Shown: positions 3,936-59,556 of the stretch, piece after piece | Numbering within the stretch: the first letter of the stretch is position 1 | Layout of the letters: every line of letters starts with the position of its first letter | NCBI RefSeq assembly: GCF_017573465.1 | Contig: NZ_JAGEPF010000040.1 | Span: forward strand, 1 to 64,000 | DNA length: 64,000 nt | Source: Actinomadura violacea | Lineage (GTDB): Bacteria; Actinomycetota; Actinomycetes; Streptosporangiales; Streptosporangiaceae | Reading direction: 5' to 3' | The notes under the pieces: generated by a model | Database searches by the model: none | What the model was told of the DNA's origin: nothing | The model's input: the letters and a program-made list of their open reading frames with translations, nothing else | Made by a program: the position numbers and the translations under genes

Positions 3936-5360
3936 CTACGGCTCGTCCGGTGCGGAGCCGCCCTTGCGGCCGGTGCTCTTACTGGAGGCGCCGGGGGACC
4001 GCCGACTACGAGGGCGGGGCTTCGGTCTGGGCTCGGCCGGGGCATCGGCGGTGGAACCTGTTTCAGCGGCGGAGCCCGTGTCGGGACGGCGAGCGGACCG
4101 GGTGGCGTGGTTGAGCTCCTCCTGCAACCGATCGATGTGCTCGTGGAGCGCTTCGAGACGTTCGGCCGCCGCGACCCGCTCGCGGCGTTCGGTGTCCAGG
4201 GCCTGCTCGGCGCGGGTGGTGCTGCGGCGCGCTTCGGTCAGGGCCTGCTCAAGGGCCTGCTTCTCGCCGGCGTGCACGCCGGCGAGAAGCTCGCGGTCAC
4301 GTTCTGCGTCGGCGCGGGCCCGGGTGAGCTGGGCGTCTCGTTCGGAGTTTGCGGCTTCGGCCTGCGCCCGCAACCGCTGCTCGGCTTCATCGCGGATCCG
4401 TTCGGTCTCTGCCCGCGCGGTGGCGACGTCCTCGGCCGCCCGCCGCTGCACCTCGCGCAGTTCCTGGTTAGCACGCTCCCGCTCGGAACGCAGATCCACC
4501 CGCATCTGCTGGCGCTCCTGGTCGGCGGCGTCGCGGACCCGGTCCAACTCGGCTCGCACATCGCTGACCTGCTGGCGAGCGCGCTCGGCGTCGGCTTGGG
4601 CGTCAGTGGCGCGCTGGTCGGCCTGGGCGGCGGCTGTCAATGCCTGGTCCCGCTCGGTCTGCGCGGCGGCAGCCTGCCGCTGAGCGGCAGTAACCCTCTC
4701 GTCAGCCTGGCGGCCGGCCCGCTCGACCGCCTCGTCGCGCTCGGCGCGCGCGGCATCGATCCCGGCCTGGGCGTCGGCCGCGGCCTGCTGGACCAGTCTC
4801 TCGGCCTTGGCACGGGCGGCGGCGGCGTCCTGCTCGGCGCGCTCAGCTCGCTGGTCACTGGCTTCCAGCGCCTGCCGAGCAGCCTCGGCAGCCTCCCAGG
4901 CGGCATCGGCCTCCTCGGCCGCCTCAGCCGCTCCGGCCTCGGCAGTGGACGCCCGAGCCTCGGCGCGGCGCTGAGCGGCCTCGGCGTCAGCGAGCTGGGT
5001 ACGGACCCGGTGGACATCGACCTGGTCCAGATCCCCTCGGATCCGCCGCACCAGAGCCGGAACCTGCCGCACCATCTCCTCCAGCGCCGCCAGCGGGTCC
5101 TGCTCGCTCTCGGCTTCCCGCTCGGCTTCCCGCTCGGCCGCCGCCTCCTCGGGCGAGCCGTATCGGCGCGCGTTGTGGTACTTGGTCGCGTGCTCCGGGC
5201 TGCAGAACAGCCGCTTACGTCCCCGGCGGCCTTCGGCCTCCAGGGGGATCTCATTGAGGCATTCGGGCAGCTTGCAGACCCGCCTCACCGCGGCCTGCGC
5301 GAGCGTATCGGCCGTCGGCCGCGCACTCGGTTCCTTGTCCTGCTGGGGCGTCTCTGTCAC
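3936..5360 (-). CDS. zinc-finger plus long coiled-coil protein (KfrA-like)
   Basis: A 474-residue protein. Residues 29-57 hold a short zinc finger with Cys29, Cys34, Cys53 and His57 (CKLPEC then FCSPEHATKYHNARR). From about 75 to 445 it is an almost unbroken Ala/Glu/Arg/Gln-rich coiled coil with heptads, followed by a basic Pro/Arg/Ser tail. DNA-binding head plus long alpha-helical tail is the plan of KfrA-type plasmid proteins, which autoregulate and help partition. It is transcribed divergently from another gene with the same type of finger, and a perfect palindrome lies between them, probably its operator or a centromere-like site. The start is a GTG at 5360. No sequence-level homology to KfrA is claimed. 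Confidence 0.75.
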   Translation of the reverse strand: MTETPQQDKEPSARPTADTLAQAAVRRVCKLPECLNEIPLEAEGRRGRKRLFCSPEHATKYHNARRYGSPEEAAAEREAEREAESEQDPLAALEEMVRQVPALVRRIRGDLDQVDVHRVRTQLADAEAAQRRAEARASTAEAGAAEAAEEADAAWEAAEAARQALEASDQRAERAEQDAAAARAKAERLVQQAAADAQAGIDAARAERDEAVERAGRQADERVTAAQRQAAAAQTERDQALTAAAQADQRATDAQADAERARQQVSDVRAELDRVRDAADQERQQMRVDLRSERERANQELREVQRRAAEDVATARAETERIRDEAEQRLRAQAEAANSERDAQLTRARADAERDRELLAGVHAGEKQALEQALTEARRSTTRAEQALDTERRERVAAAERLEALHEHIDRLQEELNHATRSARRPDTGSAAETGSTADAPAEPRPKPRPRSRRSPGASSKSTGRKGGSAPDEP

Positions 5361-9268: not shown

Positions 9269-10168
9269 TTACATTGACCGGCCCATCGACACCGGGATGT
9301 CGAAGTAGGCGCCCAACGCCAGACGCACGAGGACGGACAGCTTCAGGTTGTGTCGTTTCGCCAGAGCCTGCAGGCTCGGCTTCCATTGGGGCGACAGCTG
9401 GTACTGGACCCGCACGTTGGATGGCTCGTTCCGCCTGGTTCGGCCGGGAGCTCGTTCGATCACCGCAAGGCCGGGGAACAGGCCGCCATCGTGGACTGGT
9501 CCTCTTGCTGCCCGGATGAGATCGGGGAACTGGTCCTGGGCTTGAAGCACGGCGTTCAGGACGATCTTCTCTGCGGAGAGGCCGGTCTGCTGCATCCGCT
9601 TGACTCTGGCGGCGATGCTGACAGGCACGTACGCCTGGTGGGTGACCTTCCCCGCGTGGATCCAGTCCGATTCGTCGTATCCGTCTGTGTCACGGTCCTC
9701 AGCGAGCGATGAATGCGGGTCGGTCGAGACCGTGGGCTCGTCGGCTGAGGGTACTGTCGCGCCGGCTAGGAGGGGCGGATCCGCCCGGAACTCGGCGTCC
9801 AATGGCGCACTAGGCGACGGCACCGTCCGTTCCCGGACTGGCGCAGGCTCCTCAGCCGTAGGTGTTCTCGTCGGCGCAGAGCTGGCGACCTCGCTGATCG
9901 GTTGAGGTGAGACCTTCGGGTCCTGCGACTTGACCTGTGTGGTCTCGAGGTCGGCTTCGGCCGCTTCTTCCGAACTTCCTGACTGCGCTGGTTCGACCTT
10001 CTGGACGGCAGGTTCTCCCCGCCCGGCGGGATCTTGCGAGCTGGATGCTCCGGCAGAGGCCTCGGCGATACGTGCGCCGCGGCGACGTCGACTCCGGCCC
10101 AGCCCTGCGGTGTCAGGTTTCGGAGGAGCCACCGGAGTGTTCCCCGCCGTCTGGGTGGTGTCGGTCAT
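9269..10168 (-). CDS. ParB-like partition partner (disordered N, ribbon-helix-helix-like C)
   Basis: A 299-residue protein whose start overlaps the end of parA by 4 bases, so the two are translationally coupled. About the first 165 residues are acidic, Pro/Ser/Thr-rich and probably disordered. The C-terminal part contains VRVQYQLSPQWKPSLQALAK then LSVLVRLALGAYFDIP (about 250-295), which suggests a ribbon-helix-helix DNA-binding fold. An earlier stretch YVPVSIAARVKRMQQTGL has a similar look. In ParA systems without classical ParB, such small or RHH proteins bind the centromere. The CTAG-rich region at 11.7 kb is a candidate target. No ParB CTPase motif is visible. Confidence 0.7.
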   Translation of the reverse strand: MTDTTQTAGNTPVAPPKPDTAGLGRSRRRRGARIAEASAGASSSQDPAGRGEPAVQKVEPAQSGSSEEAAEADLETTQVKSQDPKVSPQPISEVASSAPTRTPTAEEPAPVRERTVPSPSAPLDAEFRADPPLLAGATVPSADEPTVSTDPHSSLAEDRDTDGYDESDWIHAGKVTHQAYVPVSIAARVKRMQQTGLSAEKIVLNAVLQAQDQFPDLIRAARGPVHDGGLFPGLAVIERAPGRTRRNEPSNVRVQYQLSPQWKPSLQALAKRHNLKLSVLVRLALGAYFDIPVSMGRSM

Positions 10169-11241
10169 ACCGCTGCCTCCTCCTCTTCTCGTTCGATCTC
10201 GGTGATGCGTTTGACGACTTCGACCGTCAGAGACTCGTAGTCTCCGCCGACGGCTTCAGCGCGATCGGTCGGGAGCACAGTGCCGGATTCCCCTCGGGCT
10301 TTCTGCCACCATTTGATCCCATCGGTAGCTTCGCCCACTTCAAAAGTGAGCTGGCCACGATCACGACACCGCACCGCAACCGTCTCGGCGGAGCGGATCA
10401 CCGCGTCGAAGACGGGCGCGTCTGAGCCCGCCTCCTGCAGCAATTGCTCAAGGCGTCGACGAGTTTCTACCCATAGCCCTACCGGCCGCTTCTCCCCCGT
10501 TATCCGGTCCGTCCGGTACCGATGGGTGAATCCGAAAAGCACGGCCCCGAGCAACTCCAGGTCGGGGTTGAGGTCTTCGGTCGACTGGAAGCGGTGGGCG
10601 ACCCCACCGAGCCCGTCGACTGAGGCCTGGTCTCCAGTGGAGACCGGGGTGAGCACCCAGCGAGCTGCGCCGAGGGCCAGCTCCTGCGGCTCCCTGGTGA
10701 CCGGCGGACAGTCAATGACGATCCACCGATAGATATGAGCCAACTTGGCCAGCATGACCGCCAACGACAGCCAGGCGGCTCGTCCGCGCTTGTTGACTAG
10801 CGCAACCATCTGTACCGGGAGCTGCTCCAACTCCACGCCGCTGGGGATCACGTCCAAGAAGGGCCGGACATCCCTAATGATCTTCGGGTCTGTCCCGTAC
10901 TGCAGGGCCATCGCCAGGGATTCGCCGTTGTCGTTGAGGGGGTGTCCCTTGACCCCCAAATCGAGCAATGTGTTGCCCTGAGAGTCCATTTCGAGAACCA
11001 AGACACGTCCGGCGTCCAGTCCTCGCTCAGCCTTATCCTGCTCTGCCTCAGCCAGCAGGCCGGCGACATGAGTGGTGACGCTGGTCTTGCCCTGCCCGCC
11101 CTTGCCGTTGAAGACCGCAATCACACGTCTGAGAGATGGCCGCAGAAGGTCTACCAAGGCGTTGAGCTCGGAGGGGCTGGTCCGTCCGCTGAACTGTTTC
11201 AGATCCAGGTTCAACAGCTGCTCAGGCGCTTGAACGACCAT
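10165..11241 (-). CDS. parA: ParA family partition ATPase
   Basis: A 358-residue ATPase with a deviant Walker A motif KGGQGKTS (47-54), a switch-like VLVLEMDSQGN (about 80-90), and IVIDCPP (about 168-174) as Walker B. These are hallmarks of the ParA/Soj/MinD group, which move cargo DNA by forming gradients on the nucleoid. It is larger than chromosomal ParA and has an unusual Arg/Glu-rich C terminus. It is the first gene of a two-gene operon with the ParB-like gene, and is preceded by 930 bases of non-coding DNA that probably include promoter and centromere. Confidence 0.9.
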   Translation of the reverse strand: MVVQAPEQLLNLDLKQFSGRTSPSELNALVDLLRPSLRRVIAVFNGKGGQGKTSVTTHVAGLLAEAEQDKAERGLDAGRVLVLEMDSQGNTLLDLGVKGHPLNDNGESLAMALQYGTDPKIIRDVRPFLDVIPSGVELEQLPVQMVALVNKRGRAAWLSLAVMLAKLAHIYRWIVIDCPPVTREPQELALGAARWVLTPVSTGDQASVDGLGGVAHRFQSTEDLNPDLELLGAVLFGFTHRYRTDRITGEKRPVGLWVETRRRLEQLLQEAGSDAPVFDAVIRSAETVAVRCRDRGQLTFEVGEATDGIKWWQKARGESGTVLPTDRAEAVGGDYESLTVEVVKRITEIEREEEEAAV

Positions 11242-26248: not shown

Positions 26249-26665
26249 TTAGAGCTCGCCTTTGCGCCAGGCCTCTGCTTCAGCGTCGATCTGGTCGACG
26301 TCCGGCGGCGGGATCTCGATGGAGTTGGCCCATGCGCTGATGAGGTCGGCGGCCTGCCTGACGGTGTCGGCATCGACGGCGCCGTGGACGTGGAAGTAGG
26401 TGATGAGCGCCCCGGCCTCCGGCTGGTCGGCGTCGCAGCCCGGGCACAGCACCACCTCGGTCGTTCCGCGGATGACGTGCCCGTCCTGTCGCTCGATGTC
26501 ATGCGGAACGCGGGCCGACAGCAGACCCGGCCCGCCGCAGCGCGGGCAGGCCGGGACATGCAAGGCGGACACCACGTCGATCGGTCGTCTGCTCTGCTCG
26601 CCCGCAGACTCGGGGTCGTCGCGGTCGTCCGACTGGTCGCCGGGCCGTGAGCTGCTGGGGGTCAT
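26249..26665 (-). CDS. DUF6300-like zinc-ribbon protein
   Basis: A 138-residue protein with CPRCGGPG and CPGCDAD, two CxxC knuckles about 35 residues apart forming a zinc ribbon, then a helical acidic C terminus. This layout is that of DUF6300 proteins of actinomycetes, of unknown function. It starts at ATG 26665, overlapping the dnaE stop by 4 bases, so it is probably expressed with dnaE. Confidence 0.75.
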   Translation of the reverse strand: MTPSSSRPGDQSDDRDDPESAGEQSRRPIDVVSALHVPACPRCGGPGLLSARVPHDIERQDGHVIRGTTEVVLCPGCDADQPEAGALITYFHVHGAVDADTVRQAADLISAWANSIEIPPPDVDQIDAEAEAWRKGEL

Positions 26666-29600
26666 TGGATGGCGCTCGCGCCCAGCAGACTCTTGATGTC
26701 GCCGAAGAACGCCGAGTCCGGATTCACCTGGAAGGGCTCCAGGTTGAGCAACGTGCCGCGTCCGCCGTGCGTCATGTACGCCAGGTGGACCGGTGACCCG
26801 CCGGGGTGGGCGGACAGGATCCGCTTGAGTTCCGAGACCGTCCCGGCGTTGATCTTGGTGGCGGGGACGCTGATGACGACCGGCGGTTCGGACCCGCCGG
26901 CGGTGGAGACGTCCAGGACCTCCATTTCCTGGGCGTGCAGGGAGATGGAGCCGTCGCGTTCGTTGATCCGGCCGAGGACGCTGACCACCATGTCGTCGGC
27001 GAGCGTCGTCGAGTACAGCTGGTAGGCCGACGGGAAGAACAGGCACTCGATCGACCCGTCGAGGTCCTCCAGCTTGATGATCGCCCAGGAGTTGCCCGTC
27101 TTGGTGACCTTGCGGGTCAGCCCGGAGATCAGCCCGGCCACCCGCACCATGCCCTGGCGGCCACCGGCACCGACCTCGGCGGTGGTGGCCTCCCGGTTGC
27201 GCTCCAGGATCCGCTCTGCGCCGTCCAAGGGGTGGGAGGAGACGTACAGGCCCAGCATCTCCCGCTCGAAGGCCAGCAGCGTCGCCTTGTCCCACTCCCC
27301 GTCGTCGGGGATGGTCACCGCGAGCGGCGCCGAGCCTCCGTCGTCGGCCAGCCCACCGAACAGGCTGTCCTGGCCGATCGCCTCGGCCTTCTTCTCGCTG
27401 ACCACCGAATCAACGGCCGGTTCGTGGGCGATCAGCAGCCCCCGCCGCGGGTGCCCCAGGCTGTCGAACGCGCCGGCCTTGATCAGCGACTCGATCGCGC
27501 TCTTCTTGCACACCGGCATCGGGACCTTGGTGAGGAAGTCGCCGAAGTCGGTATAGGCGCCCTTTTCTTTGCGGGCGGTGACGATGCCGTCCACGACGGC
27601 CTCACCGACGTTGCGGACCGCACCCAGACCGAACCGGACATCGTCGCCGACAGCGGCGAACATCGCTACCGACTCGTTCACGTCCGGAGGCAGCACCCTC
27701 ACCTTCATCCGCCGGCACTCACCGAGATACACCGCCATCTTGTCCTTGTTGTCGCCGACCGAGGTCAGCAGCGCCGCCATGTACTCGGCGGGGTAGTTCG
27801 CCTTCATGTAGGCGGTCCAGTAGGAGACCATGCCGTATCCGGCGGTGTGGCTCTTGTTGAACCCGTACTGGGAGAACGGCACCAGCACGTCCCATACGGC
27901 TTGGGCGGCTTCGGCGCTGTAGCCCTTGTCGGCCATGCCCTGGGAGAAGATGGCCCATTGCTTGTCCATCTCCTCTTTCTTCTTCTTGCCCATCGCTCGG
28001 CGCAGGATGTCGGCGCCGCCGAGGGTGTAGCCGGCGAGCTGCTGCGCGATCGCCATGACCTGCTCCTGGTACACCACCAGGTGGTAGGTGTTCCCGAGGA
28101 TGGGTTCCAGGGCGTCTTTCAGCTCCGGGTGGATCGGGGTGATCTCCTGCTGCCCGGCCTTGCGGAGCGCGTAGTTGACGTGGGCGTTGGCGCCCATCGG
28201 GCCCGGTCGCCCGAGGGCGAGGACGGCGGACACGTCCTCGAACTCGGTCGGGGCCATCAGCTTGGTGAGATCGCGCATCATCGAGCTGTCCAGTTGGAAG
28301 ACGCCCAGGGTCCAGCCCGCGCGCAGCAGGGCGTAGGTGGGTTCGTCGTCCATCGGGATGTCGGTCAGCTTGACCTCGATCCCCCGGTTGGTTTTGACGT
28401 TGTCGATGGCGTCGCCGAGGATCGTCAGGTTCCGCAGCCCCAGGAAGTCCATCTTCAGCGCGCCCAGCTCCTCGCAGGAGGGGCCGTCGTAGCCGGTGAT
28501 GCGGGCGCCGTCGTCGGGGCGCTGGTGGATCGGCATCACGTCGATGAGCGGCTGGGACGACAGGATGACGCCGGCGGCGTGCACGCCGGTGCCGCGGGTC
28601 AGGCCTTCGATGCCGACCGCGGTGTCCAGGACGCGTTTGACGTCCACGTCTTCCTCGTACAGCTGCCGCAGCGCTGTGGCCTCGGCGTACCGTGGGTCCT
28701 TCTCGTCGAAGATCGCCGAGAGCGAGATCTCCTTGCCGCCGGCGGCGGGCGGGAACGCCTTGGTGATCTTGTCGCCCAGTGCGTAGGGCAGGTCGTTGAT
28801 GCGGCAGGAGTCCTTCACCGCGGCCTTGGCCTTGATGGAGCCGTAGGTGATGATCAGGGAGACGTTGTCCTCGCCGTACCGCTCGTTGACGTAGCGGATC
28901 ATCCGCTCACGGCGACGGTCGTCGAAGTCCAGGTCGACATCGGGCATCGACACGCGTTCGGGGTTGAGGAACCGCTCGAAGATCAGGCCGTGCTCGATCG
29001 GGTCCAGGTCGGTGATGCCGGTGACGTAGGACACCATCGACCCCGTCGCCGACCCGCGTCCCGGGCCCAGCCACACCCCGTTCTCGCGGGCGTAGTTGCA
29101 GATGTCGGCGACGACCAGGAAGTAGCCGGGGAACCCCATCTCGTCGATGACGCCCAGCTCGTAGTTGATCCGTTCGGTGACCTCGGCCGGGACCGGGTCC
29201 CCGAACCGCTTCACCGCGCCGCGCTCGGCTTCCTTGCGCAGCCATGTCGACTCGGTTTCGCCTTCGGGGATGGGGAACTTCGCGGCCAGGTCGCGCCGCT
29301 CGAACACCTCGTCGTACGGCTCGACCATCTCGGCGACCAGCAGGGTGTTGCGGCACCCTTCCAGCCAGGCTTCGGAGGAGTCGATGCCGCGCATCTCCTC
29401 GGCGGTCTTGAGGTAGTAGCCGCTGCCGCTGAACCGGAACCGGTCGGGTTCGGCGAGGCGGGATCCGGTGCCGACGCACAGCAGCGCGTCGTGGGCGGCC
29501 GCCTGGTTCTCGGTCACGTAGTGGGAGTCGTTGGTGACCAGCGGCGGAATGCCGAGGGTGTCGGCGATCTTCAGCAGGTCATCGCGGACCCGCCGCTCCA

Positions 29601-30213
29601 GCGGAAGCCCGTGGTCCATCAGCTCCAGGAAGTAGTTTTCTTTCCCGAAGATGTCCTGGTACTTCGCCGCAGCCTTGAGGGCCTCGTCGAACTGGCCGAG
29701 CCGCAGCCGGGTCTGCACCGCACCGGATGGGCATCCGGTGGTGGCGATGATTCCCTTGCCGTGCTCGGCGAGGAGTTCGTCGTCCATCCGGGGCCACTTG
29801 CGGTAGTGGCCCTCCAGCGAGGCCAGCGACGTCAGCTTGAACAGGTTCCGCAGGCCGGGCGCGTCCTTGGCCCACATCGTCATGTGGAGGTAGGACCCGG
29901 ACGCCGAGACGTCGCCGCCCTCGCCGGTCTGCTCGTTGGTCTTCTTCTGGTGCGGCTCGCCCCACAAGATCGGCTTGCGGACATGCCGGGACTCGGGAGC
30001 CACGTAGGCTTCCACACCCAGGATGGGCTTGATGCCGTTCTTCTTGGCGCCCTTGAAGAACTCGTACGAGCCGAACATGTTGCCGTGGTCGCTCATCGCT
30101 ACCGCGGGCATCCCGAGTTCGGCGGCCTTGCCGATCAGCGGGCTGATCTTCGCGGCACCGTCCAGCATCGAGTACTCGGTGTGAACATGCAGGTGAACGT
30201 ACGAATCAGCCAA
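26662..30213 (-). CDS. dnaE: DNA polymerase III alpha subunit (DnaE)
   Basis: A full-length 1183-residue C-family polymerase. The PHP domain opens with YVHLHVHTEYSMLDG (5-19) and MSDHGNMFG. The polymerase active site shows LGPGRGSATGSMVSYVTG and PDVDLDFDDRRRERM (about 425-440), which carries catalytic Asp residues. A helix-hairpin-helix/beta-binding region with SQYGFNKSHTAGYG follows, then an OB domain (MVRVAGLISGLTRKVTKTG). All key residues are present, so it should be active. Carriage of a dnaE copy is known from large actinobacterial plasmids and phages; here it may help element replication. It heads a two-gene unit with the DUF6300 gene. Confidence 0.95.
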   Translation of the reverse strand: MADSYVHLHVHTEYSMLDGAAKISPLIGKAAELGMPAVAMSDHGNMFGSYEFFKGAKKNGIKPILGVEAYVAPESRHVRKPILWGEPHQKKTNEQTGEGGDVSASGSYLHMTMWAKDAPGLRNLFKLTSLASLEGHYRKWPRMDDELLAEHGKGIIATTGCPSGAVQTRLRLGQFDEALKAAAKYQDIFGKENYFLELMDHGLPLERRVRDDLLKIADTLGIPPLVTNDSHYVTENQAAAHDALLCVGTGSRLAEPDRFRFSGSGYYLKTAEEMRGIDSSEAWLEGCRNTLLVAEMVEPYDEVFERRDLAAKFPIPEGETESTWLRKEAERGAVKRFGDPVPAEVTERINYELGVIDEMGFPGYFLVVADICNYARENGVWLGPGRGSATGSMVSYVTGITDLDPIEHGLIFERFLNPERVSMPDVDLDFDDRRRERMIRYVNERYGEDNVSLIITYGSIKAKAAVKDSCRINDLPYALGDKITKAFPPAAGGKEISLSAIFDEKDPRYAEATALRQLYEEDVDVKRVLDTAVGIEGLTRGTGVHAAGVILSSQPLIDVMPIHQRPDDGARITGYDGPSCEELGALKMDFLGLRNLTILGDAIDNVKTNRGIEVKLTDIPMDDEPTYALLRAGWTLGVFQLDSSMMRDLTKLMAPTEFEDVSAVLALGRPGPMGANAHVNYALRKAGQQEITPIHPELKDALEPILGNTYHLVVYQEQVMAIAQQLAGYTLGGADILRRAMGKKKKEEMDKQWAIFSQGMADKGYSAEAAQAVWDVLVPFSQYGFNKSHTAGYGMVSYWTAYMKANYPAEYMAALLTSVGDNKDKMAVYLGECRRMKVRVLPPDVNESVAMFAAVGDDVRFGLGAVRNVGEAVVDGIVTARKEKGAYTDFGDFLTKVPMPVCKKSAIESLIKAGAFDSLGHPRRGLLIAHEPAVDSVVSEKKAEAIGQDSLFGGLADDGGSAPLAVTIPDDGEWDKATLLAFEREMLGLYVSSHPLDGAERILERNREATTAEVGAGGRQGMVRVAGLISGLTRKVTKTGNSWAIIKLEDLDGSIECLFFPSAYQLYSTTLADDMVVSVLGRINERDGSISLHAQEMEVLDVSTAGGSEPPVVISVPATKINAGTVSELKRILSAHPGGSPVHLAYMTHGGRGTLLNLEPFQVNPDSAFFGDIKSLLGASAIQ

Positions 30214-50648: not shown

Positions 50649-51656
50649 CTACGGGAGAGGGGCGGGGAGACCGGTACCGGTCTCCAGGGGGCTCAGGAGG
50701 GGGCGGCGCTTGTCATACAGATGCGCGGCGATCGCGTCAGTGATGGCAAGCCCGCATTTGATCTCCACGAACCCGTACATGCCGGAGGGGTTGCACTCCA
50801 GGAAGACCCATCCGTCAGGGCCATCGATGAAGTCGAACGCGCCGTACTCCAGGCCGTAGGAGCGCATGTACTTCAGCACCGATCGGGCGATGCCGGCGGG
50901 GACCTCGACCTGGTCGTAGGTCAGCTGGTCCTGAACCGGTCGCCAATCCAACTCGCCGTCCAGGTCGTCGCTGCCGTTCATGCGGACGGCGAACAGGTCC
51001 TCTCCCACGACGGTCAGCCGGATGCTGGGGCCGGGAATGACCTGCTGGAAGCTGGTGGCGGCACCGAGCTCGTCGGGGATGGCGGCCGGGTCGGCCCGGC
51101 GCGCGATCACCATGTTGTCGGGGTCAACGCCCTGGGCGTGGAAGGCTTTGGAGAGGACGTCGCGGCCGGAAGCCCAGGCACGGGCCTTGCGGCCTCCGGT
51201 GGTGATGACGGTGTCGGGGATGGCCATGCCGCATGCGGCGGCGGTGAGAAGCTGCCCGGGCTTGTCGTTGGCGATCTCGAATCGGCTCGGGTGATTGAGC
51301 CATCGCACCGGCAGCGTCTTCAGGACGCCGTACAGCGCCAGACGGTCCTCGCGGGCGGCCCAGGCCCGTGCTGCGGGGTCGGTGATGGCCGGATGTCCGG
51401 CCGGAGGCGTGGGCCAGCGCCACAGCACCCCCACGACGTTCTCCAGCTGGGCCGTGTGGTGGTCGTCTCCGATCCTCCCCTGCCAGGCCATCCGGTCCTG
51501 GTCGAGGGTCACCTCCATGTGGAAAGGACCGGATCCGGGGTCCAGGCGCACGACGGGCACCCTGCGGCGGTGCAGGGCCGAGACGATCAGGTCGCTGGTG
51601 TGGTCGTCGCGGTCGGTGAGGATGAGGACGGTGTCGCTGGTGGGCGCGTGAGCCAT
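50649..51656 (-). CDS. ATP-grasp ligase of a graspetide (RiPP) system
   Basis: A 335-residue ATP-grasp enzyme of the peptide-maturase group that joins Thr/Ser/Lys side chains to Asp/Glu in a precursor, forming omega-ester or amide crosslinks. The N-terminal VLILTDRDDHTSDLIVSAL and RVPVVRLDP are the pre-ATP-grasp domain. FQQVIPGPSIRLTVVGEDLF and YGAFDFI, followed by WVFLECNPSG with the metal-binding Glu and Asn, form the active-site half. ATG 51656 has GAAGGAG upstream. The precursor gene lies 110 bases upstream, in the usual order. A PIMT gene is nearby but separated by terminator-like hairpins. Confidence 0.9.
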   Translation of the reverse strand: MAHAPTSDTVLILTDRDDHTSDLIVSALHRRRVPVVRLDPGSGPFHMEVTLDQDRMAWQGRIGDDHHTAQLENVVGVLWRWPTPPAGHPAITDPAARAWAAREDRLALYGVLKTLPVRWLNHPSRFEIANDKPGQLLTAAACGMAIPDTVITTGGRKARAWASGRDVLSKAFHAQGVDPDNMVIARRADPAAIPDELGAATSFQQVIPGPSIRLTVVGEDLFAVRMNGSDDLDGELDWRPVQDQLTYDQVEVPAGIARSVLKYMRSYGLEYGAFDFIDGPDGWVFLECNPSGMYGFVEIKCGLAITDAIAAHLYDKRRPLLSPLETGTGLPAPLP

Positions 51657-51766
51657 CGTTCTCCTTCGGCTGGGGGTGAACCGGGCGCAGACCAAAGAGG
51701 CGGCCCGCAGCGGAGGGCTGCGGGCCGCCTCGAATCTCACTCAGTGGCGGACGCGGGAGTTACCGG

Positions 51767-52000
51767 TCAGCCGTTGTCGTCGGTCTTGTTGTCCTTGTGG
51801 GTGGTGCCCCACGTCACGGTGAACTGGATCATCAGGTCCCGCTGGTCGGCCAGCGGGACGCCCTGGTGCAGGTTGACCTGGCGGTCGGGGTCGAAGACCA
51901 GCGGCGGGATGGCGGTGACCGCCGGACGCAGACCGACCTGGTTGCGCAGGCCGTAGGGGCGGAACTCCGACTCGGCGACCGGAGCGGTGAGCACGGGCAT
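51767..52000 (-). CDS. graspetide precursor peptide
   Basis: A 77-residue peptide of the GRASP_targ type. Leader features are FRPYGLRNQ (13-21) and VFDPDRQVNLHQGVPL (35-50), the conserved motifs recognised by the ligase. The C-terminal core FTVTWGTTHKDNKTDDNG (60-77) carries Thr61, 63, 66, 67 and 73 and Asp70, 74 and 75, suitable partners for Thr-Asp side-chain ester crosslinks. An Asp-Asn or Asp-Gly-like environment (Asp70-Asn71, Asp75-Asn76) could also be imidated. ATG 52000 has CAGGAG upstream. It is transcribed with the ligase gene. Confidence 0.88.
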   Translation of the reverse strand: MPVLTAPVAESEFRPYGLRNQVGLRPAVTAIPPLVFDPDRQVNLHQGVPLADQRDLMIQFTVTWGTTHKDNKTDDNG

Positions 52001-52055
52001 CTTCTTCTCCTGACGCCGGGCAGGGTCGGCCACCTCGGCTGGTGGCCTTTGGGTT

Positions 52056-52247
52056 CACGGTCTGTCCCCGTCCCGACGGGCCGACCCCAGCCGTGCGACG
52101 CACGGCGCGGTCAACCGGTCCGGCCCTGGATTCCAAGATGTTTTCGACGAAGGAGAAAAGATCTTGGAATCCAGGATCAGCCGGCCGGTTGACCGCGATG
52201 GGTGGCGTGCGGCACCGTCAGAGCCCGCGGGACAGGGACAGACCGTG
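52056..52247. repeat. long palindrome, copy 3 of the AAGATGTTTTC family
   Basis: CCTGGATTCCAAGATGTTTT (52125-52144) pairs with its partner at 52156-52175, mismatching only at the GATG/GATC place. Further arms: CGCGGTCAACCGGTCCGG (52106) with the segment ending 52197, and CACGGTCTGTCCCCGTCCCG (52056-52075) with 52228-52247. The element is 192 bp, as copy 2. Lies directly upstream of the graspetide precursor. Confidence 0.8.
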
Positions 52248-52440
52248 ACGCTCAAGGGCGCCGACCTGGCCGTCCCCTGGAGAGGGCAATCCAGCGCTGC
52301 CCCTTCCGAGCCCCGACACGGAGCGTGCTATGGCACACCGTCGTCGCGCCCGGCAGGCTCGGGAAGCGGGCGCGGTCCGGGGCCGCCGCTGCAGGAGGTC
52401 GTCGTAGGCGTGTCTGCCGCCTGCCTCTAGTGAAGCCGCG

Positions 52441-52498
52441 CCGGCGGCGGGTCCACAAGGCGAGTCCCCTCTGGGGTGCCTTGCGGACCCGCCGCCGG
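52441..52498. terminator. hairpin ending the lasso-methyltransferase operon
   Basis: CCGGCGGCGGGTCCACAAGG (52441-52460) and GCCTTGCGGACCCGCCGCCGG (52478-52498, split here only for description) form a 21-bp stem with one mismatch. It stands 56 bases after the stop of the PIMT gene and separates it from the graspetide genes. Beyond these structures, 52001-52553 has no gene. Confidence 0.7.
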
Positions 52499-52553
52499 TG
52501 TGGCAGGTCTGTCGCAGGCGGCGGCGCGCCGGCCTGCGGTCTTTGGTTGTGGT

Positions 52554-53678
52554 TCAGCGGGTGGTGTGCCAGTTGGCCGGGGCGTGGACGGGCTGGCTGG
52601 TGGGGCCGATAGGTTCCAGGGGGGTGGTCCAGTCGCTGATGGCGTGGCGGCCGGTGTCGGTCCAGGCGGTGACGAGTTCGGCGAGTTGGTCGAGGAGGGA
52701 CGGGTCGCCGGTGTGGTGGGCGGTGCCGTCGTGATGGATCCAGGCGGTTGCGGTGGTGTCGGGGTCGTGGAGGGCGCAGAGCCCGTGTGCGGGGTCGATG
52801 CCGTCGGTCCAGGCGCGGGTGGCGCGGGGGTCGTGGGCGGCCAAGTGGAACCAGAGAGCCTGGTAGTCGGTGTCGTCCAGTTCGGGTCCGACGTCGTGGG
52901 TGAGGGCGAGCGCGTCGGCGGGGACGGCTCGGGTGGGAGTGCGGGTGCGGTGGGCCGGCCAGTAGTAGAGGGGACCGGCGGCGGTCATGAAGTCGGCGTG
53001 AGAGACGGCGCGCGCGGTCGGGGCGGGGCCCGGCTGGGTGATGGCCAGGAGGGGATGTTGCCCGCCGTGCGCGGTGGGGACCAGGGCGAGCCCGCTGGGG
53101 GCGAGCTGGTCGAGCCAGTGGGGTGAGGCGCCGGTGACGCCGCAGGTGACGATGATGCGGTCGTAGGGGCCGGCGTCGGGGTGACCGAGGTAGCCATCGG
53201 CGTGCAGGGCGGTGACGCGGTCGATCCCGGCGCGGTCCAGGGCGGCGGCGGCCTCGGCCGCGACCGCCTGGGAGACGTCGATGGTGACGACGGGTGCGTC
53301 GGTGATGGTGGCGATCAGCGCGGCGTTGTAGCCGGTCCCGGCGCCGACCTCCAGCACCCGCATCCCGGGCTCCAGGTCGAGCGCTTCGAGCATCTTGGCG
53401 ACCAGGGACGGCTGGGACGCCGAGCTGTAACCGCCGGCCTCGTCGTCGGGAACGTGGGTCATCAGCGACCGGTCGGAGTAGATCCGGTCCAGGACCTCGC
53501 CATCTGGTTCCTCGCCGACCTGGACCCGTTCGCGGCCCTGATAGATGGTGTTGAGGAACAGGTGCCGCGGGACGGCGGCGAAGGCGCTGGCGACGTGCTC
53601 GCTGCGGATGGCACCCTTGCCGGTCAGGTCGGCGGCGTAGGCGGTGAGCCGGTCGGCGATGGTGTCGGTGGCGGTCAT
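52554..53678 (-). CDS. RiPP-associated isoaspartyl-methyltransferase-like enzyme
   Basis: A 374-residue PIMT homologue: SSASQPSLVAKML (85-97) is the PIMT substrate/SAM-loop region, VLEVGAGTGYNA (108-119) SAM motif I, and VVTIDVS motif II. The long C-terminal extension (about 230-374) is absent from repair PIMTs and is typical of RiPP enzymes. Known homologues methylate an Asp that then closes to aspartimide, in lasso peptides (cellulonodin-2, lihuanodin) and in graspetides (fuscimiditide). Spacing (40 bases after B2) puts it in the lasso operon, yet graspetide genes lie downstream, so it could act on either. ATG 53678 is preferred to the longer open frame. Confidence 0.88.
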   Translation of the reverse strand: MTATDTIADRLTAYAADLTGKGAIRSEHVASAFAAVPRHLFLNTIYQGRERVQVGEEPDGEVLDRIYSDRSLMTHVPDDEAGGYSSASQPSLVAKMLEALDLEPGMRVLEVGAGTGYNAALIATITDAPVVTIDVSQAVAAEAAAALDRAGIDRVTALHADGYLGHPDAGPYDRIIVTCGVTGASPHWLDQLAPSGLALVPTAHGGQHPLLAITQPGPAPTARAVSHADFMTAAGPLYYWPAHRTRTPTRAVPADALALTHDVGPELDDTDYQALWFHLAAHDPRATRAWTDGIDPAHGLCALHDPDTTATAWIHHDGTAHHTGDPSLLDQLAELVTAWTDTGRHAISDWTTPLEPIGPTSQPVHAPANWHTTR

Positions 53679-53718
53679 GGTTCGGTCCCCGTTCCTGGCG
53701 GTCTGGTCGAAGGAGCGT

Positions 53719-54183
53719 TCAGCGGTCGTGGCGGCTGGCGCCGCCGGTGGTGGTGGTGGAGTGCGCGGTGATGGTGATGGTCGGGGTGTAGGTGGCGATG
53801 AGGTGCGCGGGTTCGCCGACGGGACGGCCGTCGACCTCGATCCAGGCGTGCGAGTGCAGGGGCGGGTAGCGCACTCCGCTGCGCCAGGTCGGCCAGGTCC
53901 CGGCGGTGCGGCAGAACATCGCGACGGCGATCGAGCGCAGCAGGCAGCCGGTGTCGCCTCCGCAGCGCGGGTGCAGGATGGTGATGACGGTGAAGGCGCG
54001 TTCGGCTTGCGCGCGACCGGCGGGACGGGCGACGGCATAGGGGGTCAGCGCGCGCCTGAGCGGGCCGGGCCGCGCGTTGGTCGCGGTCAGGATGACCCGG
54101 GCCGCGGCCAGCGCGGTCAGCCCCCGCAGGCGTTCACCGAGGGTGAGGGCGGCCGGTGGGGGCAGCGCGACGATGGAGCTCAC
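53719..54183 (-). CDS. lasso peptide leader peptidase (B2)
   Basis: A 154-residue transglutaminase-like cysteine peptidase that removes the leader peptide. Catalytic residues visible are Cys80 (GDTGCLLRSIAVAMF), His112 (SHAWIEVDG) and Asp118. A basic N-terminal region precedes the domain, as in other actinobacterial B2 proteins. ATG 54183 overlaps the stop of B1 by 4 bases. Confidence 0.9.
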   Translation of the reverse strand: MSSIVALPPPAALTLGERLRGLTALAAARVILTATNARPGPLRRALTPYAVARPAGRAQAERAFTVITILHPRCGGDTGCLLRSIAVAMFCRTAGTWPTWRSGVRYPPLHSHAWIEVDGRPVGEPAHLIATYTPTITITAHSTTTTGGASRHDR

Positions 54184-54446
54184 CGGCCGTCCTCCAGCAG
54201 CAGGCCGCTGTTGTTCAGCTCGACGACCAGGGCGAGGACGTCGGCGCGGGCTCGTCCGGAGTCGATCTGGAAGCGGCCGGCCAGGGTGTCGGCCAGGTGA
54301 GCGGCGGTGGCGCCGGTGGTGAGCTGGTCGATCAGTGTGGCGGCGGAGGGGTTCAGGGCGTAGTAGCCGCCGTCGCGCTGGTCGAGCAGCAGGTGCTGCT
54401 CGCCGGTGCGGACGTGCTGGACTTCAGGGTGCAGGCGGACGATCAT
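54180..54446 (-). CDS. lasso peptide PqqD-like recognition protein (B1)
   Basis: An 88-residue PqqD-fold protein (RiPP recognition element). VRTGEQHLLLDQRDGGYYAL (16-35) followed by NPSAATLIDQLTTGAT and then TLAGRFQI is typical. It binds the YxxP...G-F leader motif and hands the precursor to the peptidase and cyclase. The start overlaps the cyclase stop by one base pattern (TGATG). Confidence 0.9.
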   Translation of the reverse strand: MIVRLHPEVQHVRTGEQHLLLDQRDGGYYALNPSAATLIDQLTTGATAAHLADTLAGRFQIDSGRARADVLALVVELNNSGLLLEDGR

Positions 54447-56398
54447 CACGCGGCCCCGCTCGTGCTCTGAGTGGTGGTGTGGTGGTGTGCTTTCAGCCAG
54501 GTCTCGCAGGCCAGGGTCTCGTTGAGGAACGAGGGCGGGATCCGGCCGTGTTCGGCGTCGCCGATCGCGCGGCGGATCCGGGTGTCGTCGATGAGTCCGA
54601 GCCCGGCCAGCGCCGATCCGTCGAACATCTCCAGCAGCGCCTCGCGGTGGGTGGCCAGGCCGTGCAGGATGTCGTGGTTGTAGTGGCCCTTGGTGCGCCG
54701 GTCGGGCAGCACCGGCCCCAGGGCGGGGCCGAGCGCGGCGTGCAGGAGCGGTTTCGGCTGCCAGGGGTCGGTGCGCTGGGCGGGGTGGACGGCAAGGCAG
54801 GCGTGAAGGACGGCGCGGTCGAAGAACGGGAACCGCGCCGTGACGCCGAGGGCCTCCAGCGCGTCGCGGTAGAGACCCGCGCGGCGGGCCATCGCGCGGA
54901 CGCGGACCAGTTCGTAGTGCCGCGACGCCGTCGCGGCCAGCGGGACGGCCTGCGCCGCGGCGCCGCGGAGCTGCTCGCGCAGCATCGCCTCGGCGTCGCC
55001 CGTCGCCCAGGGCGGCAGCAGCACCGGCGCCTCCCATCCGGCCATTTCCCCCACCCGGTCCCGGTCCCGGCGGCCGGGCCGGTAGGTCAGGTCGCCGGCG
55101 GCCAGACCGGCGAGCCAGGACCGGTAGGAGGGGTTGGTGGTCATCGCGGCCAGCAGGTGCCGGGCCGCGACCCCCGACAGGGCGGCGTGCCCGCGGACGC
55201 GCCGCAGCGCGTCCCGCGGCGCCTGACGCAGGTGGTCGCGCAGATAGCCGACCGGCGCGGTCAGCACCTCGTCTCCGCCCTGCCCGTTGAGATGGACCCG
55301 GGCGCCGCTCGCGGTCACCACCTGCGCAAGATGGCATATCCGGGCCGCCGACGCGGCGAACGGCGCGGGCTCGTCCAGCAGCGGCAGTCCCGGGTCGGCC
55401 GGCGCGAAGAACGCCGGATGCTCACCCGGTTCCAGGACGCGATGCCGGATGCGGCACCCGGCTCCGGGCAGGTTCGCCGCGACACGGCGGGCCCAGAACA
55501 CATCGTCGTTGGCGGCCGTCACCGACGCGGCGGTGACCAGCAGCATCGGCCGCCCCGGCTGCTGGGCGGCCAGGCCCGCCAGCGCGGCCGAGTCCAGTCC
55601 GCCCGACAACTGGCAGCTCACCATCCCCGCGCCGATCCCGGTGGGGCCGGTGGTGGTGTGGGTGGTCGCGTCGGTGACGGCGCCGGTGAGCGCGTCGGCC
55701 AGCCGCCCGGCGGCCTCGCCGAAGTCGATGTGCCCATCGGAGCCGGGCGGCGTCCAGTAACCCGCGACCGTGACGGGCGTGCGGGTTGCGGGCGTGCGGT
55801 CGAGGGTGATGCGGTGCCCGGGAGGGACCGTGTGGATTGCGGTGTAGGGGGCGGCGGTGGCCGCAGCCGCCGACACCAGTTCCGGGCAGGCCAGCCGGGC
55901 CGCCAGCCACCGGGTGTCGATGGCGGCGCCGGTCAGCTCGGCCAGCAGGGCGGCGCGGTCGCTGATCAGCACCTGGTCGTGGTGGCGGGTGTGGAACAGG
56001 CGGCGCAGCCCGGCCGGGTCGGTGTAGCCGTGAACGGCGTCCGGGCTGCTGACCAGGAGCAGGAAGTCGCCGGGCAGCCGGGTCAGGGCGTCGATGGTGC
56101 CGCAGGCGACGGCCCGCTCGACGCGGCCGCGCAGGGCACTGTCAGGCAGCGGGCAGTGGCCGAACAACGCGACCCGGACGCTCCCGGCGGCGACCACCCG
56201 CCAGTCCTGCGTTCCGGGATCACCGGCCAGCCAGAGCCGCCCGCATGCGTGCCGGGCGGTGCGGACCGCCCGCCGCCCCAGCAGCTGCTCCGCCTGCCCG
56301 AGGCCGACCTCATCAGGGGCCGTCTGGCCAGGGCCGATGCCGGGCAGCATGCAGACCCAGGAGGGACCGCGGCTGCGGGGGCGGCGGGGGATCACCAT
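54446..56398 (-). CDS. lasso peptide cyclase (asparagine-synthetase-like)
   Basis: A 650-residue protein. The N-terminal part resembles the glutaminase-like domain of asparagine synthetases without its catalytic Cys; the C-terminal part is the ATP-dependent synthetase with QLSGGLDSAALAG (PPi loop near 262-274). It adenylates the ring Asp or Glu side chain and closes the macrolactam with the amine of core Gly1. In the standard actinobacterial order A-C-B1-B2. Translationally coupled to B1. Confidence 0.92.
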   Translation of the reverse strand: MVIPRRPRSRGPSWVCMLPGIGPGQTAPDEVGLGQAEQLLGRRAVRTARHACGRLWLAGDPGTQDWRVVAAGSVRVALFGHCPLPDSALRGRVERAVACGTIDALTRLPGDFLLLVSSPDAVHGYTDPAGLRRLFHTRHHDQVLISDRAALLAELTGAAIDTRWLAARLACPELVSAAAATAAPYTAIHTVPPGHRITLDRTPATRTPVTVAGYWTPPGSDGHIDFGEAAGRLADALTGAVTDATTHTTTGPTGIGAGMVSCQLSGGLDSAALAGLAAQQPGRPMLLVTAASVTAANDDVFWARRVAANLPGAGCRIRHRVLEPGEHPAFFAPADPGLPLLDEPAPFAASAARICHLAQVVTASGARVHLNGQGGDEVLTAPVGYLRDHLRQAPRDALRRVRGHAALSGVAARHLLAAMTTNPSYRSWLAGLAAGDLTYRPGRRDRDRVGEMAGWEAPVLLPPWATGDAEAMLREQLRGAAAQAVPLAATASRHYELVRVRAMARRAGLYRDALEALGVTARFPFFDRAVLHACLAVHPAQRTDPWQPKPLLHAALGPALGPVLPDRRTKGHYNHDILHGLATHREALLEMFDGSALAGLGLIDDTRIRRAIGDAEHGRIPPSFLNETLACETWLKAHHHTTTQSTSGAA

Positions 56399-56484
56399 TA
56401 ACGCTCCTTTCCAAGCCGGGGATCAGTGCGCCGAGCCGGAGCTCAGAGCGCGCAGGTCAAGACGTGCGGATCAGGACGTGCAGG

Positions 56485-56712
56485 TCAGGGCGTGTAGTAC
56501 TGGCCGGCGTCGGAGTCGTCGCTGTTGCCGACGCTGACGCTGCCGTGGGTGTCGGCGCCGAACTCCCCGACGCGGGTGACCGACGGCGGCTGGTAGGCCG
56601 GGCCGCCGGCCCCGACGGTGGTGCCGGTCGCGGCGGTCTCGGGGGCGTCGACGGCCGGAACGCCGCGGGGGACGCGGTGGGAACCGCTGGGCTGGTTGAT
56701 GCCGTGCTTCAT
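56485..56712 (-). CDS. lasso peptide precursor (A)
   Basis: A 75-residue precursor. YQPPSVTRVGEFGADTHG (40-57) is the leader motif Y-xx-P-x-[LV]-xxx-G-x-F plus the Thr at -2, so cleavage is expected after His56. The core would be GSVSVGNSDDSDAGQYYTP (19 residues). Gly1 to Asp9 gives a 9-membered ring; Asp10 and Asp12 and the bulky Tyr16-Tyr17 lie in the loop and tail. ATG 56712 has a CCAGGAG ribosome site 7 bases before it; a longer frame reaches 56745. Unusually rich in Pro/Ala/Thr upstream of the recognition motif. A TTGACA -35-like box lies at 56816-56821. Confidence 0.92.
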   Translation of the reverse strand: MKHGINQPSGSHRVPRGVPAVDAPETAATGTTVGAGGPAYQPPSVTRVGEFGADTHGSVSVGNSDDSDAGQYYTP

Positions 56713-56923: not shown

Positions 56924-57346
56924 TCAGGGGAGTTCCAGCTGCTCGCCGTCTGGTCCTCCGGCTGGTTCCGCACCTGGTTCCGCGCTGGGGCGGTCGGAGC
57001 CGGTCACCCGCCGCCAGCGGTCGTATTGGGTCCAGAGGTTCAGCTGGCCGGTGATCGTCTCGTCCAGCAGCGCGACCGCCCGCCGGGACGCCGCCGCCTG
57101 CCCGGCTAGGCCCGCGCGGCGAACCTGATCACGGGTCTGCGCCGCCGCCCGGTCCGCTTGAGCGGCGTGGCCGGCCAGAGTCGCGCGGACCTTGGTGAAG
57201 GTGTCGGCGATCGCTTCCAGCACGTCGGTGTCAGTGATGCCGTCCGGCAAGATGAGCACCAGGTCGGCGGCGGGAACCGGCGGTCGCGCGGACAGGTTCG
57301 GCGACCTGTTGGGGATCGGGGTGGAGCGTGCCCGGCCATCGCTCAT
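56924..57346 (-). CDS. hypothetical protein coupled to an anti-sigma-like gene
   Basis: A 140-residue protein; ATG 57346 overlaps the previous stop by 4 bases. VLILPDGITDTDVLEAIADT, then KVRATLAGHAAQADRAAAQT and VALLDETITGQLNLWTQYDR suggest two long helices, perhaps a coiled coil. Family not recognised. It may work with the ATPase encoded just upstream. Confidence 0.65.
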   Translation of the reverse strand: MSDGRARSTPIPNRSPNLSARPPVPAADLVLILPDGITDTDVLEAIADTFTKVRATLAGHAAQADRAAAQTRDQVRRAGLAGQAAASRRAVALLDETITGQLNLWTQYDRWRRVTGSDRPSAEPGAEPAGGPDGEQLELP

Positions 57347-57978
57347 CGGGCCAGGTCCCACCATGCGATCACAGCCTTTCCGCCCGCCGGGCTGGGATAG
57401 GACGCCCAGCGGCTGGCCAGCGAGGCGATCAACCCCAGGCCGCGGCCGCTCTCCGCAAGATCCTCCAGCGCCAGATCAGCCCGAGCCGGATCGCCGGGGG
57501 CCGGAGAGTCCGGCTCGTGCGGGCGCGCGGGGACCGGCGGGACGGGGCTGGGGTCCCAGACCTCGCAGAGCAGCCGCCGGACGGTCAGCCGCAGCTGAAG
57601 CGTGATGACCGGCGGGGTGTGATCGTGCAGGGCGGCGTAGTCGCCGGGAATGGTGTCCGAACCGACCTCGACGATCGCGTTGGTGACCAGCTCGCTGGTC
57701 ACCAGAGCGACGTCGTCGGTGAGCGGTCCCAGACCCCATTTGCGCAGCTGCGCCGCCGCGAACCGGCGGGCCGTCGCGGCCGCGGACGGCAACGCCGCCA
57801 GCTTCAGCGCCTCGCAGTCCCGATCGGGGTCGCGCGGGTCCCGGGTGAACAACGGCGGCCGCTTCGGCGAAGGGCGCACCGACCGCTGCATCGGCGCGGA
57901 CGGCTGCGCGGACGGCTGGGAGGGCTGGAACGCAGAGGGCGGCATCTGGGCCTGACATGGGACGGGGAGCACGGTCAT
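57343..57978 (-). CDS. anti-sigma-factor-like HATPase
   Basis: A 211-residue protein. After a Pro/Ser-rich start, residues 75-205 form a GHKL ATPase of the RsbW/SpoIIAB type: VALVTSELVTNAIVEVG is the N box (ELVTNA), and SGRGLGLIASLASRW the G1/G2 region. This family phosphorylates or binds anti-sigma antagonists; in actinomycetes many stand-alone copies act in stress or development control. ATG 57978 has CAGGAG upstream. Confidence 0.8.
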   Translation of the reverse strand: MTVLPVPCQAQMPPSAFQPSQPSAQPSAPMQRSVRPSPKRPPLFTRDPRDPDRDCEALKLAALPSAAATARRFAAAQLRKWGLGPLTDDVALVTSELVTNAIVEVGSDTIPGDYAALHDHTPPVITLQLRLTVRRLLCEVWDPSPVPPVPARPHEPDSPAPGDPARADLALEDLAESGRGLGLIASLASRWASYPSPAGGKAVIAWWDLAR

Positions 57979-58451
57979 CGCGATGGGCTCCTGGCTGTGT
58001 GGACGGCTGCCCCCGCGTGCGGGGTGGCCGCCCAGGCCGAGCGTCTGTTGAAGGTCCAGGCCGGGCGGCCGCTGTCGTGGTGGCCGGGGCCGAGCCCCAA
58101 CCAGGTAGCCTGTCCGGGATTCGCCGATCTTCGGGATTCCCGAACTTGCTTCCCGCCCGTGAGTATGTGGCGTGTGGCACAAAGGCGGCAAGGGGAACGG
58201 CGGCGTGCGAGGTCGCGCCGCCGGGCGCGAACGCGACGAAAGGGCCGGAGCAAGGCTCCGGCCCTCAGGCATTTCGGCTGGTCAGCGTCGTTGTGAACGG
58301 GATATGTGCGGCCTGACGGCCGTCGCAGGTTGGGCCCGTTGCGGGCCTGCATGATGACCTACTCCGGCCCGACCGGATCACCGGACCGGCCCGTCGGTCA
58401 GCTCGGCGGGCAGTGCAGCCCCCGGCCCCGGCTCGCGGCGGTTCGCCGGGT
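57979..58451. other. intergenic region with a short hairpin
   Basis: About 470 bases without a gene. AGGGCCGGAGC (58241-58251) and GCTCCGGCCCT (58255-58265) form an 11-bp stem with a 3-base loop, probably a terminator between the DUF397 gene and the anti-sigma-like gene. Nothing else is apparent. Confidence 0.5.
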
Positions 58452-58679
58452 TCAGGGCAGGTCGTGGGAGCCGTTCCTCACCTGCTGCAGGAACCGGTGC
58501 CAGGTCGCCGGGGACAGTGCCAGGACCGGGCCAAGGCCGTGCTGCTTGGAGTCTCGGACACCGATGCCCCGGCCCGGCCGGATGCCGGCCGCGACCTCGA
58601 CGCACTCGGCGCTGTCCTTGCTGCGGCTGGACTTGCGCCAGCCGGCGTACTCGTCCGGGGAAGGGACTGCGGTGGCCAT
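58452..58679 (-). CDS. DUF397 protein
   Basis: A 75-residue DUF397 protein: WRKSSRSKDSAECVEVA, then IGVRDSKQHGLGPVLALSP and WHRFLQQVR. Pairs of XRE/DUF5753 regulator and DUF397 protein are common in actinomycetes, and the upstream neighbour is such a regulator, 13 bases away. Confidence 0.9.
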   Translation of the reverse strand: MATAVPSPDEYAGWRKSSRSKDSAECVEVAAGIRPGRGIGVRDSKQHGLGPVLALSPATWHRFLQQVRNGSHDLP

Positions 58680-58692
58680 GGGCGTGCTCTCT

Positions 58693-59556
58693 CTATCTGG
58701 ACGGCAGCGCGTCGGCTGCCCGGATCAGGAACTCGCGGCTGCTCTCGACTGGCAGTGCCACCTGGTTCAGTGCCTCGAAGGTCGCGGCATAGCGGCCGAC
58801 CTGCTCGCCATCGGTCGAGACCATGTCGGTGAACGCGGCGTCGATCCCGACGACCATCGGGTCGCCGGAGTCTGGATAGGTATAGAGGGAGAACGAGGAG
58901 AACGGCAGAAAGCCGCCGACCTCGGCCTCGATCGGCAGCACCCGGACCCTGGTGGGCCCGTCGGCATCGATGACGCCGACCAGGTGCAGCAGCTGCCCGC
59001 GCAGCACCTCCGGCGGCGCCGACCGCCGCCGGATCGCGTACTCATCGATCAGTGCCTCGTAACGCGGGCCGCCCTCGCGGTTCAGCATCCGCTGCCGACC
59101 CGCCCGGCCCTTCAGGACGCCCTCCAGGGTCAGCCCGGACGTCAGCGGCCAGGGCGAGGACTCGATCCCCGCCTGGGTGAATTCCGGCGTCTGCAGCAGG
59201 CCCGGGATCACCGTCTGCTGATACTCACGGATCGTGGCCGCGCCCGCCTCCAGGTTCGCAAACAGCGCCTGCCGCTCGCCCATCGAGCGGGAGTTGGACT
59301 CCCACCAGCCTCGCTCGGCCGCCTCCCGGGCGATCGTCATCAGCTCGTTCCAGCGTTTGCCCTCGACGCCCAGGACCTCCAGAATCTGCATGATGTCGTC
59401 CAGATCCGGGGCGATCTGCCCGAGCTCGTAACGGGAGATCTGCTGGCGGGACGGATCGACCTGAGCCGCCAGCTTGTCCAGCGTGACCCCGGCCGCCGCC
59501 CGCAGTGCTTTGAGCTCCGAACCGAGACGCTTGCGGCGAACGTAAGGACTGAGCAT
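58693..59556 (-). CDS. XRE-family regulator with DUF5753
   Basis: A 287-residue regulator. The helix-turn-helix is ELKALRAAAGVTLDKLAAQ then SRQQISRYELGQIAPDLDD (14-52). The C-terminal DUF5753 domain includes YQQTVIPGLLQTPEFTQAG and RRRSAPPEVLRGQLLHLV. These pairs with DUF397 proteins control development and antibiotic production in Streptomyces relatives. Likely target: its own operon or the RiPP genes upstream; not shown by sequence. Confidence 0.9.
   Translation of the reverse strand: MLSPYVRRKRLGSELKALRAAAGVTLDKLAAQVDPSRQQISRYELGQIAPDLDDIMQILEVLGVEGKRWNELMTIAREAAERGWWESNSRSMGERQALFANLEAGAATIREYQQTVIPGLLQTPEFTQAGIESSPWPLTSGLTLEGVLKGRAGRQRMLNREGGPRYEALIDEYAIRRRSAPPEVLRGQLLHLVGVIDADGPTRVRVLPIEAEVGGFLPFSSFSLYTYPDSGDPMVVGIDAAFTDMVSTDGEQVGRYAATFEALNQVALPVESSREFLIRAADALPSR

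Follow-up and report, generated by a model that had tools for sequence, protein, structure and literature searches.

A stretch of 64,000 nucleotides from Actinomadura violacea (contig NZ_JAGEPF010000040.1, positions 1 to 64,000; the window) carries, on one strand, the genes for two ribosomally synthesized and post-translationally modified peptides (RiPPs), a lasso peptide and a graspetide, with one gene for a protein isoaspartyl methyltransferase (PIMT)-like enzyme between them. We hold with good confidence that these are two independent RiPP clusters: a lasso operon, A-C-B1-B2-M, in which the PIMT-like enzyme M would install an aspartimide, and a separate graspetide branch that has no PIMT in its operon. 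An initial annotation of this DNA had offered three owners for the PIMT: the lasso peptide, the graspetide or both. The first is supported by synteny in seven of nine relatives and by phylogeny, the second is contradicted by phylogeny and the third found no positive evidence. Judged by comparison with its relatives and by its place in the tree, the PIMT is a lasso enzyme.

The gene order proposed in the initial annotation (lasso A, C, B1, B2, PIMT, graspetide precursor, ligase, all on the minus strand) was borne out by the coordinates and by family scans:

56487..56712, minus strand: lasso precursor A, 75 amino acids (aa); NF033521, 19.1 bits (cut-off 19)
54446..56398, minus strand: lasso cyclase C, asparagine-synthase-like; PF00733, 104.9 bits (cut-off 21)
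54180..54446, minus strand: lasso B1, PqqD-like leader-binding protein; PF05402, 52.6 bits (cut-off 23.4)
53719..54183, minus strand: lasso B2, leader protease; NF033537, 82.4 bits (cut-off 33), with PF13471 also over its cut-off
52554..53678, minus strand: PIMT-like Asp O-methyltransferase M, 374 aa; PF01135, 114.6 bits (cut-off 20.3)
51767..52000, minus strand: graspetide precursor, 77 aa, C-terminus TVTWGTTHKDNKTDDNG; TIGR04186, 16.5 bits (under the cut-off of 25)
50649..51656, minus strand: ATP-grasp graspetide ligase, 335 aa; TIGR04187, 272.8 bits (under the cut-off of 350)

The window thus has the precursor, B1, B2 and cyclase C of a lasso cluster together. The best NCBIfam model for the cyclase, NF033561, scored 251.8 bits (below its cut-off of 300), and B1 matched NF033530 at 69.1 bits, just below the cut-off of 70. 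Precursor A and C are 88 bases apart, C/B1 and B1/B2 overlap, and the PIMT begins, as the initial annotation had it, 40 bases past B2 (B2 ends at 53719, the PIMT begins at 53678). The next 553 bases, up to the graspetide precursor, hold no assigned gene.

Genomic context and phylogeny of the PIMT

Among 298 genomes of the same family, 100 (own genome included) had a PIMT match at E ≤ 1e-30. Besides the window's own gene, four relatives were at least 45% identical over nearly the full length (67, 53, 47 and 45%); below these the score drops from 254 to 132 bits, and other long alignments (for example, residues 8-348) reach at most 39%. In all four loci the PIMT shares a strand with lasso A, C and B2 and comes after them; B1 was detected in three. 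A search of 394 genomes of the class with an alignment of these five PIMTs (E ≤ 1e-60) added matches in 5 further genomes, 3 of them in lasso operons, with A, C, B1 and B2 (L108), A, C and B2 (L110), or part of C plus B2 (L109). Overall, seven of nine PIMT relatives are in lasso operons, counting once the Bailinhaonella thermotolerans locus (the only match of an extra contig scan with the PIMT) and the G025 locus. An ATP-grasp ligase was found near none of the nine when five ligases were searched against the 440 to 10,078 bases reachable per side.

A tree was built from 47 of 50 PIMT rows, leaving out three with broken frames (two from L097, one from L098); two short pieces had already been dropped at extraction. 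In this placement, suggested as a check in the initial annotation, the PIMT groups clearly with one class: it falls inside a ten-row clade (eight lasso rows, two without lasso context) with support of 100/99. Fourteen graspetide PIMTs lie beyond branches of 100/99, together with nine unlabelled rows, and 13 of these 14 group together (81/80). Forcing the window PIMT onto the graspetide side cost 62.7 log units and was rejected by the approximately unbiased (AU) test (p-AU 2.6e-8). When the tree was extended by a lasso PIMT of group 1 and three graspetide PIMTs, the window PIMT kept the same clade at 100/99.

Predicted modification of the lasso peptide

The lasso core was read as GSVSVGNSDDSDAGQYYTP, following Thr(-2)-His(-1). 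Positions 6-9 are GNSD, and the D(T/S)AD ring motif of characterized aspartimide lasso peptides (DTAD) is lacking. Across the seven lasso cores compared, Gly1, Asp9, Asp10 and Tyr16 are identical, while residue 11 is Ser in six and Gly in one. With a nine-residue ring closed at Asp9, the loop would begin with Asp10, and no other free Asp is conserved in all seven cores; Asp10 is therefore the predicted site of modification.

These features match a published description (literature statements here and below refer to the parts of each source that were consulted). PIMT/PAMT-associated lasso peptides of group 2 were described by Lee et al. in 2023 (PMC10787088) and appear as group 2 'lassimiditides' in Zhu and Link, 2026 (PMC13001092); for the two groups together, 67 predicted lasso clusters have been published (PMC10787088). 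Common to group 2 and the window are a lasso cluster with a PIMT homologue, a core without D(T/S)AD at positions 6-9 and a highly conserved Asp in what would be the loop; in the window these positions read GNSD, and the Asp is Asp10, present in 7/7 cores. The group also has a C-terminal extension of more than 100 residues on the lasso-operon PIMT homologue; in M, the PCMT match spans residues 85-214 of 374 and is followed by about 160 more. The core has no DTAD but a conserved Asp9-Asp10, and the window's lasso peptide therefore fits the published, uncharacterized group 2. This assignment follows the published description (PMC10787088, PMC13001092), from which the window has no known difference other than a WXXXGXP motif without its Pro. 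No characterized group 2 peptide was found in the consulted parts of the open-licence literature searched. In group 1 (cellulonodin-2 and lihuanodin), as in the window, the lasso genes are followed by a PIMT homologue and the ring-closing Asp is at position 9, but DTAD occupies positions 6-9, where the window has GNSD, and ring Asp6 is modified (PMC13001092). The PIMT of a DTAD locus, L164, is far from that of the window (tblastn, 30% over 169 residues). For a common origin of the lasso PIMTs of the two groups, p-AU was 0.127, with the sole group 1 row on a long branch.

On this basis, B1 and B2 would cut the leader off after Thr(-2)-His(-1), and C would join Gly1 to Asp9 to form the nine-residue ring. 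Once the lasso has folded, M would methylate a single Asp, most probably Asp10 just beyond the ring (Asp10-Ser11), and the methyl ester would collapse to an aspartimide, with a net change of -18 Da. We predict this order of reactions, and characterized lasso PIMTs work on the finished lasso (PMC13001092). Alternatively, M could act on the lasso peptide, yet the final product could bear isoaspartate (isoAsp) or restored Asp instead of a stable aspartimide, an outcome that we consider possible but the less probable one. Other RiPP aspartimides mostly hydrolyse to isoAsp (PMC13001092); residue 11 is Ser or Gly and not Thr, which is said to direct lihuanodin towards Asp; and a loop site would leave the ring width unchanged, so that isoAsp might be tolerated. 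In both characterized aspartimide lasso peptides, however, the aspartimide was retained in the material as obtained (PMC13001092). We thus predict, from the conserved residues, an aspartimide at Asp10 in the lasso loop.

Several observations weigh against a lasso-dedicated, aspartimide-forming M. The top NCBIfam model for M is TIGR04188, an ATP-grasp peptide system methyltransferase (187.9 bits, cut-off 380), followed by an FxLD model (168.1 bits); as the first match is far under its cut-off and FxLD comes next, we read M as distant from both curated families. The WXXXGXP motif of RiPP-associated PIMTs reads WTDTGRH in M, with the Pro missing. The strict motif is present in three of five aligned lasso-clade members, and a review describes it as lying near the C-terminus of most RiPP-associated PIMTs without strictly defining them. 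Two of the nine relatives lack a lasso context: the L111 PIMT, nearly identical to that of L110, has no lasso genes in the 7,983 bases upstream, and the divergent, partly masked L112 PIMT shows none. In the core, Asp12 is kept in six of seven sequences and is the next candidate site. Finally, the groups for the AU test were named only after the tree had been seen; two earlier AU tests gave p values of 0.035 and 0.09, under a constraint also satisfied by the window PIMT as sister to seven other lasso PIMTs.

The graspetide cluster and its relatives

In the graspetide cluster, the ATP-grasp ligase gene adjoins that of a precursor with predicted donor Thr and acceptor Asp residues, and neither reaches its NCBIfam cut-off. 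A. violacea has one full-length TIGR04187 ligase match and a second, partial one (E 6e-4), neither over the cut-off. The five nearest ligases among the family genomes are 63 to 45% identical, and each comes after a window-like precursor; because ligase and precursor adjoin in five other genomes, their pairing is not due to chance. The precursor of the window ends in TVTWGTTHKDNKTDDNG, those of three relatives in SVTWGTTDKDNKTDAGG, TVTWGTTDRDNKTDNGG and SVTYGTPNRDNKTDDGG, and two more are divergent.

The ligase operons of these five relatives all lack a PIMT. After the ligase, each carries a GNAT-like acetyltransferase gene:

L082:9330-9872, GNAT-like gene
L083:5079-5639, GNAT-like gene
L084:9157-9735, GNAT-like gene
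L085:9188-9745, GNAT-like gene
L086:9538-9690, GNAT-like gene

Three of them (L082, L084 and L085) were scanned with a Pfam acetyltransferase model, and each scored above its cut-off. The L083 gene is 65% identical to one of these three, and L086 gave only a 51-residue match. No GNAT-like gene accompanies the graspetide in the window, and the top match from the rest of the genome shares 36% identity. An acetyltransferase is mentioned for group 7 graspetides (PMC13097080). A PIMT about 2.2 kb from the graspetide relative in L083 was considered as a counter-example and discarded, being on the opposite strand and beyond a regulator-like gene; it directly follows a Gly/Lys/Asp-rich frame that is imiditide-like as read by eye.

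In 15 more distant graspetide loci, picked from the list of matches, a PIMT directly follows the ligase in every case (two in broken frames) and a GNAT-like gene in none. The window's branch is related to group 13, the graspimiditides (fuscimiditide and amycolimiditide), in that its best ligase and precursor models are TIGR04187 and TIGR04186, both under cut-off. It differs in its short core, in the absence of an operon PIMT in 5/5 relatives and in having the GNAT-like gene there instead. Group 13 has a PIMT belonging to the graspetide operon, and none was found in the window.

These data bear on both alternative assignments of the PIMT. That the enzyme is the graspetide's and follows B2 by chance is highly improbable. 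TIGR04188 is its best NCBIfam model, though under cut-off, and ligases of the wider family adjoin a PIMT in 15/15 loci taken; in those loci, however, the PIMT comes after the ligase and not before the precursor. Synteny with lasso genes in seven of nine relatives (an ATP-grasp ligase in none), the tree, the AU test and the five nearest graspetide relatives without an operon PIMT together lead us to reject this assignment.

That the PIMT serves both peptides, being a lasso enzyme by descent and acting in trans on a graspetide whose cluster lost or never had a GNAT-like gene, is unlikely. The PIMT and the graspetide genes lie next to each other on the same strand, the window has no counterpart of the GNAT-like gene of the five relatives (the best homologue elsewhere being the 36% one), the graspetide core has several Asp residues, and RiPP PIMTs are able to act without a leader (PMC13001092). 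Against this, the relatives of the graspetide do without an operon PIMT, two strong hairpins separate the PIMT from the graspetide genes, and characterized RiPP PIMTs reportedly show high specificity for their folded substrate (PMC13001092). Moreover, among the 298 family genomes a lasso-type PIMT and a ligase of this type, each at 45% identity or more, occur together only in that of the window; the pairing of lasso PIMT and graspetide is peculiar to this strain. Two independent clusters, with M acting on the lasso peptide, remain our preferred reading.

Structures between the two clusters

The initial annotation had noted a strong hairpin past the PIMT, and the 553-base gap in fact contains two structures, with a further hairpin inside the graspetide cluster:

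52435..52504, minus strand: 27-base-pair stem, 49 bases past the PIMT stop; 91 bases folded at -63.5 kcal/mol
about 52056..52247, no strand assigned: near-palindrome, about 190 bases long, ahead of the graspetide precursor
51697..51731, minus strand: 15-pair hairpin between graspetide precursor and ligase

The inner 101 bases of the near-palindrome fold at -67 kcal/mol (z -10.7), with 0 of 200 shuffles as good. No T run follows the stem or the palindrome, and a sigma-70 scan found no promoter. The 27-base-pair stem is a possible end of the lasso transcript, and together with the near-palindrome it would hinder read-through; as neither a T run nor a promoter was seen, separate transcription of the two clusters is a prediction. 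The 15-pair hairpin may lower expression of the ligase; a terminator scan around it was near chance (2 found versus 1.1 expected). The near-palindrome was also considered as a repeated mobile element and rejected, as it has a single copy in the genome; of the 297 other family genomes, 21 match it over stretches of only 22 to 112 bases.

Neighbouring genes and other PIMT loci

PIMT homologues recur in other settings. The A. violacea genome has 15 PF01135 matches, seven of at least 87 bits, and two lasso B2 genes. On its contig 11, a PIMT homologue (L117:6996-8260) follows a small frame, MGKHDNTGDTHRPRQPIPPDKKDDDNTGGGGKRGK, that is imiditide-like by eye. Within the window, a second PIMT homologue at 2240-3637 is an FxLD-system methyltransferase (TIGR04364, 510.9 bits, cut-off 320), which suggests a third RiPP cluster. 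In L044, a second PIMT homologue (3762-4961) lies about 2.5 kb before the lasso-PIMT operon, and the small frame after it carries two CXXCXGXG motifs; by eye this frame is cysimiditide-like, so that two RiPP clusters, both equipped with a PIMT, would adjoin here. At L111:441-1517, the frame preceding the PIMT resembles, by eye, the start of the L110 precursor frame, and the locus looks as if A-C-B1-B2 had been deleted.

The region 57343-59556, which precedes lasso A on its strand, encodes an HATPase (PF13581) and a helix-turn-helix (HTH)-DUF5753 regulator (58693-59556), both possible regulators. Elsewhere in the window, a ParA-like ATPase (10165-11241) and a DNA polymerase III alpha subunit gene (26662-30213) perhaps hint at an integrated plasmid-like element.

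Implications

PIMT-bearing lasso clusters of group 2 had already been predicted in print, and the window adds another whose chemistry is likewise predicted. Lasso and graspetide enzymes have been combined by engineering (PMC13003496), and no natural PIMT common to two RiPP classes was found in the consulted parts of the open-licence literature searched; were the PIMT to serve both peptides, it would be such an enzyme. The graspetide branch with a GNAT-like gene in place of the PIMT of others is a second lead. For the PIMT-bearing lasso group, so far described as a prediction, the seven precursors yield a compact motif, Gly1, Asp9-Asp10-Ser/Gly and Tyr16, which names a candidate residue for the modification.

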